64,000 nucleotides of DNA, taken from NCBI RefSeq assembly GCF_000685235.1, contig NZ_ARYH01000001.1, forward strand, positions 1,488,001 through 1,552,000, read 5' to 3'. This DNA comes from Hyphomonas adhaerens MHS-3. Its GTDB lineage: Bacteria; Pseudomonadota; Alphaproteobacteria; Caulobacterales; Hyphomonadaceae. The notes under the pieces were generated by a model. That model was not told where the DNA came from and did no database searches. It was given only the letters and a program-made list of their open reading frames with translations. The translations under genes and the position numbers were made by a program. The first letter of the stretch is position 1. Every line of letters starts with the position of its first letter. Shown one piece after another: positions 42,444 through 44,156 of the stretch.

Positions 42444-42482
42444 GCTCTTGCCGCAGATAGAAGAAACGGTCACAAGTCATTG

Positions 42483-43388
42483 ATGGACTGGGGTAAGCTA
42501 CGTTCTTTCCACGCTGCAGCGGAAGCTGGCAGCCTGACGTCCGCCGGAGACCGGCTGGGCATCTCGCAATCGGCTGTCTCGCGCCAGATTGCCGCGCTGG
42601 AGGAGACGTTGGGCGTCTCGCTGTTCCAGCGCCACGCCCGCGGCCTGGTGCTGACCGATGCCGGCCACACGCTGTTCCGCTCCACGATGGAGATGGCGCA
42701 GGCGGCCCAATCTGCGAACACGGCCCTGCGCGACCAGCAGGAAACCCCGCAGGGCGAGCTGATCGTCTCTGCGCCGGTGGCCTTCGGCTCCACCTGGCTG
42801 GTGCCGCGCCTCGGCAATTTTGCGAAGAAACACCCGGACCTGCACCTGGATCTGCGCCTCGAAGACCGGGAATACGACCTGCTGAAGCTGGAGGCCGAGT
42901 GTGCCATCCGCCTCTGGGCCGCTGACAAGGCAGACCTGATCCAGCGCAAGCTCGGCACGGTGGCGACAAACCTCTACGCCTCGCCGGAATACCTGAAGAC
43001 CGCAGGCATGCCGCGCACGCCGCAGGACCTCGATAATCACCGCATCATCGCGTATGGCGACGAAAATTCGCCGCTGCAGGAGATGAGCTTTGCCTGCCGT
43101 GTGGGCCGCGACGATGCCCCGCCGCGTCCGGCGACTTTGAAGGTCAACAATGTCTTCGCCATGCTGCGCGCCGTGGATGCCGGGCTCGGTATTGCCGATG
43201 TTCCGGACTATATGGCCTCGACCATGCCGCGGCTGGTGAAGGTTTTGCCGGATAATGTCGGCCCGATCTTCGATCTGTACTTTATCTACCCAAGCGATTT
43301 GCGGCGGTCCAAGCGGGTTTCCGCATTCCGGGACTTCGTAACAGCTGAAACAGAACAGCTCCGCCGCGCAGCCATGCGGCAAGTCTAA
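42483..43388 (+). CDS. LysR-family transcriptional regulator
   Basis: Regulator of 301 aa: LysR winged helix-turn-helix in residues about 1-60 (AAEAGSLTSAGDRLGISQSAVSRQIAALE) and the periplasmic-binding-like effector domain (STWLVPRLGNF, LRLEDREYDL, ATNLYASPEYL). It most resembles the GcvA/DsdC-like branch. ATG 42483 lacks a clear ribosome binding site, but translation could follow from the decarboxylase gene. A 7-bp palindrome of LysR type lies 15 bp after its stop and upstream of a candidate sRNA promoter. Confidence 0.92.
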   Translation: MDWGKLRSFHAAAEAGSLTSAGDRLGISQSAVSRQIAALEETLGVSLFQRHARGLVLTDAGHTLFRSTMEMAQAAQSANTALRDQQETPQGELIVSAPVAFGSTWLVPRLGNFAKKHPDLHLDLRLEDREYDLLKLEAECAIRLWAADKADLIQRKLGTVATNLYASPEYLKTAGMPRTPQDLDNHRIIAYGDENSPLQEMSFACRVGRDDAPPRPATLKVNNVFAMLRAVDAGLGIADVPDYMASTMPRLVKVLPDNVGPIFDLYFIYPSDLRRSKRVSAFRDFVTAETEQLRRAAMRQV

Positions 43389-43403: not shown

Positions 43404-43421
43404 TTATGCAGTATTGCATAA
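43404..43421. promoter_or_regulatory. LysR-type palindrome upstream of candidate sRNA
   Basis: TTATGCA-GTAT-TGCATAA, perfect 7-bp arms, containing the T-N11-A core of LysR sites. It lies about 55-72 bp before the predicted sRNA start, where LysR proteins usually anchor, and just behind a LysR gene. Confidence 0.55.
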
Positions 43422-43441
43422 GTGATCTGACACAGTGGTGG

Positions 43442-43469
43442 TTGTGCGAGTGCGAAAAGGGACTATCTA
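43442..43469 (+). promoter_or_regulatory. Predicted promoter of the candidate sRNA
   Basis: TTGTGC, 16 bases, then TATCTA; the -10 region GACTATCT resembles the alphaproteobacterial housekeeping form. It would start transcription near 43476, about 110 nt before the terminator. Confidence 0.5.
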
Positions 43470-43475
43470 GGCGTC

Positions 43476-43587
43476 ATGCCAAGGGTCCCGGGCATTACCC
43501 AATCCTTCCTCCGATTGGGCGTTTCCTCCCCCTACGGGACCCGATACTTACAAGCCCGGCGCGTTAATCGCAGCCGGGCTTTTTTTT
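43476..43587 (+). ncRNA. Candidate trans-acting small RNA with UUCCUCC stretches
   Basis: No protein is encoded here. The RNA folds cleanly: an outer stem GGGTCCCG/CGGGACCC (43483-43490 with 43535-43542) encloses a 7-bp hairpin CCCAATC/GATTGGG (43498-43504 with 43513-43519) whose 8-nt loop is CTTCCTCC, and an unpaired TTTCCTCCCCC (43522-43532). An intrinsic terminator ends it. Exposed C/U-rich CUCC motifs complementary to Shine-Dalgarno sequences are typical of alphaproteobacterial regulatory RNAs. It has its own predicted promoter and is convergent with dps. I cannot assign an Rfam family by eye. Confidence 0.72.
43552..43587 (+). terminator. Intrinsic terminator of the candidate sRNA
   Basis: AAGCCCGGC and GCCGGGCTT form a 9-bp stem with a 12-nt loop, followed directly by a run of T; a canonical Rho-independent terminator on the plus strand. 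Confidence 0.9.
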
Positions 43588-43670: not shown

Positions 43671-44135
43671 TCAGATGCTGGCGCGGAGCATCCAGGCAGT
43701 TTTCTCGGCAATCGTGGCCCGTTGGGTCATCAGGTCGACCGTCACGGCATCGCCTGCTTTCTCGGCGATATCGATGCCTGCCTTGGCGACCCGGCTGATC
43801 GCTTCATGGCCTTTGACCAGATTGGCGACCATGTCGTTGGCGTCCGGAATGCCATTGTCTGGTTTGATTGTGGCCAGGTCCATCATCTCGCCCGGCGAGC
43901 CCGGCGCGAAATGCCCGAGGGCGCGGATACGCTCGGCAATCTCGTCCAGCGAAGCCCAGAGGTCGTTGTACTGCGTCTCGAACATGGTGTGCAGCGCCTG
44001 AAAGCGCGGTCCGGTCACGTTCCAGTGGTACCCGTGGGTCTTGGCGTAGAGCGCATAGGTCTCGCCGAGCAGCTTCTTCAGGGCGTCGACCGAAGTCTGC
44101 CGTTCTTCTTCTGTCAGTCCAATATCGATCGGCAT
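43671..44135 (-). CDS. dps: Dps-family DNA-binding ferritin-like protein
   Basis: Twelve-subunit mini-ferritin, 154 aa, that oxidises and stores iron and shields DNA during starvation or peroxide stress. Ferroxidase-site residues appear in KTHGYHWNVTG and FETQYNDLWASLDEIAERIRALG, as in Dps. AAGGAG 9 nt upstream makes the ATG at 44135 certain, although the frame continues open far upstream inside the aminotransferase gene. The short N-terminal tail (MPIDIGLTEEE) lacks the Lys-rich DNA-binding extension of E. coli Dps. Confidence 0.95.
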   Translation of the reverse strand: MPIDIGLTEEERQTSVDALKKLLGETYALYAKTHGYHWNVTGPRFQALHTMFETQYNDLWASLDEIAERIRALGHFAPGSPGEMMDLATIKPDNGIPDANDMVANLVKGHEAISRVAKAGIDIAEKAGDAVTVDLMTQRATIAEKTAWMLRASI

Positions 44136-44156
44136 GAAAATTCTCCTTCTGATTAC

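Follow-up and report, generated by a model that had tools for sequence, protein, structure and literature searches.

Does the gap between a LysR-type regulator gene and a convergent dps gene in Hyphomonas adhaerens MHS-3 encode a regulatory RNA in its own right, and how would such an RNA relate to the known small RNA (sRNA) families of the Alphaproteobacteria? Within the window (the whole stretch of 64,000 nucleotides that was analysed), the original prediction had placed in this gap a promoter, an 8-bp outer stem, a 7-bp inner hairpin, two anti-Shine-Dalgarno (anti-SD) stretches and a terminator. The gap holds the elements named, and direct reading of the sequence locates both stems, both anti-SD stretches and the terminator at the place given. 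The features of the locus are as follows.

42480 to 43388, + strand: LysR-type regulator gene, LsrB/VtlR orthologue, directly upstream of the sRNA (Pfam HTH_1 and LysR_substrate; structure match)
43406 to 43419, strand not assigned: palindrome ATGCA-GTAT-TGCAT, putative LysR-type site centred at about -63 (motif count upstream of relatives)
43416 to 43428, + strand: LsrB box GCATAAGTGATCT (GCAT-N3-TG-N3-T, the published consensus), -60 to -48 of the predicted start
43442 to 43469, + strand: probable promoter TTGTGC-N16-TATCTA, by eye (TTGTGC 43442-43447, TATCTA 43464-43469)
43476 to 43587, + strand: sRNA gene, predicted transcript of about 112 nt (sequence read, fold, blastn, 25-sequence alignment, covariance model)
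43476 to 43495, + strand: S1 helix, AUGCC 43476-43480 with GGCAU 43491-43495 (a double change, and other S1 helices in other genera)
43483 to 43542, + strand: S2, the outer stem of 8 bp, GGGTCCCG / GGGUCCCG 43483-43490 with CGGGACCC 43535-43542 (two double-change pairs)
43498 to 43504 with 43513 to 43519, + strand: inner hairpin CCCAATC / GATTGGG, 7 bp (sequence read, predicted fold, alignment)
43505 to 43512, + strand: anti-SD loop of the inner hairpin, CUUCCUCC / CTTCCTCC (sequence read)
43521 to 43532, + strand: single-stranded anti-SD core GUUUCCUCCCCC, within GTTTCCTCCCCC (invariant in 25 same-genus sequences)
43553 to 43587, + strand: Rho-independent terminator, stem 43553-43580 (8+3 bp, one unpaired A), T8 43580-43587
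43671 to 44138, - strand: Dps (ferritin-like) gene, convergent downstream neighbour (Pfam PF00210)

Measured against the consensus, the promoter is a weak one: a strict scan for sigma-70 sites found none. The TTG and TA..TA letters of the promoter read by eye are invariant in the 25 aligned same-genus sequences. The same scan left the sRNA terminator unflagged, presumably on account of a main-stem loop longer than the limit of 8 that it applies. A coding reading of the ATG-led frame at 43476 was ruled out because relatives carry indels of 1-2 nt inside the frame. The comparison with Rfam that had been proposed for this supposedly novel RNA gave no match at gathering scores across the whole window, and the sRNA has no match in the plasmid collection. 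Among the matches listed in literature searches on Hyphomonadaceae sRNAs, LsrB/VtlR, AbcR and anti-SD pseudoknots, which covered few subscription papers, no title or abstract describes it.

The sRNA is a regular component of genomes of this genus. Blastn against 41 genomes detected it in all 25 same-genus genomes, the source genome included, with E at most 3.0e-19, and among the 16 other genomes of the order the best match (7.9e-4) covered 26 bases. A covariance model, R1, built from the 25 same-genus sequences recovered the sRNA in 41 of 42 Hyphomonas genomes, the sole miss being a genome that is 74% complete, and in 83 of 105 genomes of the same family (Hyphomonadaceae). These comprise matches in Henriciella (g12; 28 of 29), Ponticaulis (g35; 7 of 7), g37 (3 of 3) and g34 (1 of 1), with weaker matches in all three genomes of Hirschia (g14); searches of the g13, g32, g33 and g36 genomes gave no convincing match. 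Tandem copies are present behind LsrB in two g14 genomes (L135 from G122, and L136 from G181, Hirschia maritima). Five weak matches (L137-L141) were rejected as members, their core being poor or missing and their fetched stretches holding no LysR gene, so that none of the five has the LysR orthologue beside it; other weak same-family matches (for example G211 and G214) lie outside the inspected set.

The best match of the LysR protein in the PDB is 9hh1 (E 7.3e-71), the structure of A. tumefaciens LsrB (PMC11975290), and a reverse search with A. tumefaciens LsrB ranks the window gene first in the source genome (1.9e-71; next 3.1e-29). By these sequence and structure comparisons the LysR protein is an LsrB/VtlR orthologue. 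The sRNA lies directly behind the orthologous LysR gene in 58 of 60 fetched members, and for the remaining two the contig stops at that point. Taken from the side of the regulator, an R1 RNA (E <= 3.7e-5) is present downstream of 67 of the 79 named LysR relatives, which are the best 79 of 91.

Sites that may link the regulator to the RNA lie directly upstream of the predicted promoter. In S. meliloti, the LsrB consensus GCAT-N3-TG-N3-T is located at -61 to -49 of PabcR1, and removal of the motif caused a more than 22-fold drop (PMC8844928). Of the 24 loci of the genus whose upstream sequence is complete, 17 have a strict match to this consensus at -59/-60 and seven lack it, as do all 36 rows taken from other genera; 0.27 matches were expected by chance over all rows. 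The palindrome, which overlaps the LsrB box, belongs to a more widespread pattern: 41 of 60 rows have TGCA-N4-TGCA or TGC-N5-GCA upstream, in most cases near -69, compared with about one expected from shuffles. This survey used 60 rows after one contig-end row (L126) was dropped from 61, the shuffle expectations still including it, and at tandem loci the offset of the first copy was applied to both copies here and in the S1 survey. The regulatory anti-SD role in the original prediction is supported by the layout of the RNA, the synteny with LsrB and the LsrB box, all of which are as in AbcR1.

The fold of the RNA is more elaborate than two nested stems. For the 117-nt stretch the predicted folding energy is -48.9 kcal/mol, compared with -33.25 +/- 3.38 kcal/mol for 200 dinucleotide shuffles (z -4.63), none of which folds as well. 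The predicted ensemble leaves the loop seed unpaired with a probability of 1.0 and the second seed mostly unpaired, with probabilities of 0.48 to 0.94 per base. Compensatory changes among relatives, the absence of which had been named beforehand as grounds for abandoning the prediction, occur in the outer stem, S2, at two pairs of the alignment of 25 same-genus sequences (A1): U-A/C-G in 5 of 25 and C-G/U-A in 10 of 25. The S1 helix has one double change (C-G to G-C in 3 of 25), the terminator stem has one double-change pair, and the inner hairpin is conserved, with only a one-sided A-U/G-U change within the genus. Parsimony on the LysR gene tree gives at least five double changes in S2 and at least one in S1; the tree was a single FastTree of 24 neighbouring LysR genes and two outgroups (L018 has no LysR gene), with branch support unexamined. 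Four of five covariation measures exceed those of shuffles, including paired cells (98.9% versus 96.9), double-change pairs (4 versus 1.9) and double-change cells (17 versus 4.6), but further pair types show no excess (7 versus 7.9). Controls in which the register was slid have zero or one double-change pairs, compared with four at the true register.

Because the loop of S1 holds the 5' strand of S2, the two helices interleave, and the fold is best read, on the comparative evidence, as an H-type pseudoknot of S1 and S2; their geometry suggests that both would be formed at once. An automated search of 62 sequences found a mean of 12.2 bp for the best S1 plus S2, versus 8.2 bp in controls with letter-shuffled leaders and tails (60 shuffles each), and taken singly, 42 of the 62 sequences lie at or below 0.05 and 20 above. 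With S2 chosen before S1, 48 of 65 sequences have an S1 of at least 5 bp, 14 have 3-4 bp and three have less. The 17 sequences with 4 bp or fewer are mostly from a Henriciella subgroup that has only GCC/GGC, and include L258, which is mis-scored because the automated choice of S2 is spurious there: by eye it has UCGCGC/GCGCGA and GCCUC/GAGGC. The letter sets of S1 are many and unrelated between genera. Helices include GUGUU/GACAC in Henriciella, UAGCC/GGCUA in L105 (g37), GCAUGA/UCAUGC with GUCUC/GAGAC in Ponticaulis, AGCGAG/CUUGCU with UGCCUC/GAGGCA in g14, and UGCGCGG/UCGCGCA with GCCUCG/CGAGGC in L259, from another family of the order. The MAFFT alignments A5, in which S1 is mis-registered in L103 and L105, and A6 were left out of the counts. 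The architecture thus appears mostly to stay across genera while the letters change, and on these comparisons support for the pseudoknot is good in most lineages, the knot being weak or reduced in the Henriciella subgroup. No pseudoknot with an anti-SD sRNA of this class was found among the literature matches listed.

Several other explanations of the locus have to be weighed. S1 and S2 might be alternative folds of a switch, which would be in keeping with the presence of S2 in the predicted minimum, with the -4.3 kcal/mol of S1 alone and with the members that keep only a 3-bp S1. However, the letters that form S1 are not those that form S2, whose 5' strand lies inside the S1 loop in distant genera with unrelated letters, with connectors most often of 2 nt and 0 nt (from a search that permitted 0-4 and 0-2 nt only, other spacings being undetectable by it), so that a switch seems rather unlikely beside a simultaneous pseudoknot. 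It is considerably less probable that there is no RNA of its own here but only the 3' untranslated region of lysR with its terminator. The predicted start is on the same strand and only 87 bp past the lysR stop (43388), and an RNA of that origin is described in R. sphaeroides, where SorX derives from the 3' UTR of RSP_0847 (PMC9438474), but conserved promoter elements and a site for a LysR-type regulator intervene between the stop codon and the RNA, and a conserved anti-SD core and covarying helices are present in addition to the terminator. A cis effect on dps, the convergent gene, was rejected as very improbable: dps comes next downstream here and in many relatives, but it is an inconstant neighbour, the sRNA being kept where dps lies outside the fetched flank (e.g. 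L015-L017 and L102-L104), and the sRNA and dps do not overlap.

A more serious alternative, possible but with the balance against it, is that the sRNA is a diverged paralogue of alpha-r8 (MmgR, SisA-D) that came to lie behind lsrB and acts by way of the alpha-r8 10-mer, with no descent from AbcR; this would be compatible with control by LsrB. The best permissive Rfam match of the sRNA is to suhB (RF00519), at 26.5 bits and E 0.0011, and suhB is also the top match in three of six relatives scanned (L208, 31.7 bits; L202, 31.6; L192, 27.5), but the gathering score of 41 is reached by none of these, and L171, L172 and L186 have no match. Because terminators of the same genome that lack the UUUCCUCC core reach 29.2 bits, the match does not rise above background, and membership in alpha-r8 on the basis of the 26.5-bit score was withdrawn. 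The genome has a separate canonical alpha-r8 (SisA/MmgR) gene (L061:1501-1574, at C1:1210528; 54.9 bits) beside FGase, as described for SisA (PMC12559287), and the locus and promoter of the window sRNA are those of abcR1. On the other hand, the 13-mer GGCGUUUCCUCCC, followed by ACUU and a terminator, is common to the sRNA and that canonical copy. Outside the family, at least 8 of 11 R1 matches at E <= 1e-3 and at least 24 of 43 at E <= 0.01 overlap canonical suhB loci, counted in genomes present in both samples; one of the three remaining matches at E <= 1e-3, L258, is itself LsrB-linked. The shared 13-mer and these overlaps make a common origin of the sRNA and alpha-r8 plausible. The RNA resembles MmgR and SisA-D in having the core UUUCCUCCC after a hairpin and then ACUU and the terminator. 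In alpha-r8 the 10-mer UUUCCUCCCU is single-stranded after a weak hairpin; UUUCCUCCCC of the sRNA agrees with it at nine of ten positions and follows a 7-bp hairpin. The sRNA differs from alpha-r8 in its tenth base (C instead of U), in lacking linkage to FGase, and in the 3' strand of S2 that lies between core and terminator.

The preferred reading is that of a stand-alone RNA acting in trans under the control of LsrB, which would operate as follows. LsrB/VtlR would bind the palindrome and the GCAT-N3-TG-N3-T site at about -60 and activate the sRNA. The two anti-SD seeds, that of the hairpin loop and the single-stranded one, would base-pair with ribosome binding sites and so keep targets from being translated, as the precedent of AbcR leads one to expect; Hfq would probably bind the U-rich tail. 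According to the covariation, the 5' end and the stretch past the second seed would be tied into the H-type pseudoknot, with the seed region held in its long third loop, an arrangement that may protect the 5' end or tune access to the seeds.

The likely targets would be uptake genes. The pattern GGGAGGAA-N4-11-ATG has 36 matches in the source genome versus three for the backward control; the number is high partly because GGAGGAA is a normal Shine-Dalgarno sequence, and two of the 36 are one site with two ATGs, while some lead into very short frames. Five of the 36 precede TonB-dependent receptors (L285, L290 and L291 assigned by Pfam, L297 and C3:418760 by position before receptor matches), a count to which the strong Shine-Dalgarno sequences of receptor genes may add. 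With 45 TonB-dependent receptor matches in the genome, about 0.5 of the 36 would be expected if there are some 3,500 genes, the gene number being assumed. The five receptor genes may be considered candidate targets, matches to the core being commoner there than expected, on weak evidence from pattern counts.

Elsewhere in the Alphaproteobacteria, 28 LsrB loci of other families (L225-L252) were fetched from outside the genus, out of 214 genomes with matches. In 16 of the 28, a AGCCTCCC-type RNA motif is found 196-398 nt behind LsrB and is followed by a T-run, most cases having, by eye, a preceding hairpin with a CTCCC loop. Another kind of RNA follows LsrB in Hyphobacterium (L214 and L216), in a similar MAG (L213) and in one Oceanicaulis MAG (L218): its loops read CTCCTCCCC or CTTCTCCCC, and no pseudoknot can be seen in it; that of L213 scores 35.4 bits for ar14. 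In a scan of 20 of the LsrB loci, one matched Rfam SorX, at L244:1161-1230 on the - strand (47.0 bits versus a threshold of 46.6). Since the AGCCTCCC-type motif lies behind LsrB in 16 of 28 loci, an anti-SD RNA behind LsrB may be a class-wide unit with changing RNA parts. A more far-reaching proposal, offered tentatively and at somewhat less than even odds, is that a conserved H-type pseudoknot presents the anti-SD seeds within its long loop and serves as a clamp or gate on the second seed, and that LsrB and its anti-SD RNA form a relay, ancient in the Alphaproteobacteria, by which redox state acts on nutrient uptake, the regulator having been kept and the RNA remodelled or replaced between orders.

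The pseudoknot, the link to LsrB and the relation to AbcR and to MmgR/Sis are additions beyond the original prediction. With them, the LsrB-AbcR circuit, known from work on plant symbionts and pathogens, would reach budding bacteria that live free in the sea, in which LsrB, the stress regulator encoded next to the sRNA, probably activates it and the sRNA can probably prevent the translation of its targets. A pseudoknot supported by covariation in a base-pairing sRNA makes the use of such a fold for an anti-SD regulator directly testable, and the RNA is a possible bridge between alpha-r8 and AbcR, families that are separate in Rfam.

Among other known RNAs, ar14 (RF02344) has CUCCUCC loops in its model and is weakly matched by the sRNA (23 bits), but the threshold is 58.8 bits and the ar14 model has no pseudoknot. 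SorX (RF02784) is likewise an RNA of the anti-SD type, but the sRNA does not match its model. The model of the CrfA (RF01527) sponge has no match in the source genome at E <= 1, and its scores at the locus, 15.2 and 11.6 bits, one per strand, are below the cut-off of 38.

The closest comparison is with AbcR1 and AbcR2 (alpha-r15; RF02345) of Sinorhizobium, Agrobacterium and Brucella. The Rfam ar15 model does not match the sRNA up to E 10, and its best score in the whole genome, 18.6 bits elsewhere, is not convincing against a cut-off of 40. A class-wide search with this model was silent everywhere, the controls included, and so carries no weight. The seed letters differ, and the sRNA has a pseudoknot, of which the available portions of PMC8844928 and PMC5461406 make no mention for AbcR. 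Activation of abcR1 by VtlR is described in A. tumefaciens, and under the conditions of the same study, in its available portion, S. meliloti abcR was not under LsrB control (PMC7486931). The likenesses are otherwise extensive: the gene lies directly downstream of lsrB/vtlR, the LsrB box occupies the same position in the promoter as in that of abcR1 (about -61 to -49), the length of about 112 nt is close to the 121 and 114 nt given for S. meliloti, and some members have tandem copies, as abcR1 and abcR2 are. One anti-SD seed is in a hairpin loop and one is single-stranded, the arrangement of the AbcR seeds, both of which have been probed with mutants in S. meliloti and Brucella (PMC8844928, PMC5461406). 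The sRNA gene is therefore likely to encode a stand-alone, trans-acting, LsrB-activated anti-SD sRNA, its transcription, control, pairing and targets being predictions, and to be the Hyphomonadaceae counterpart of AbcR1 equipped with a new pseudoknot clamp.
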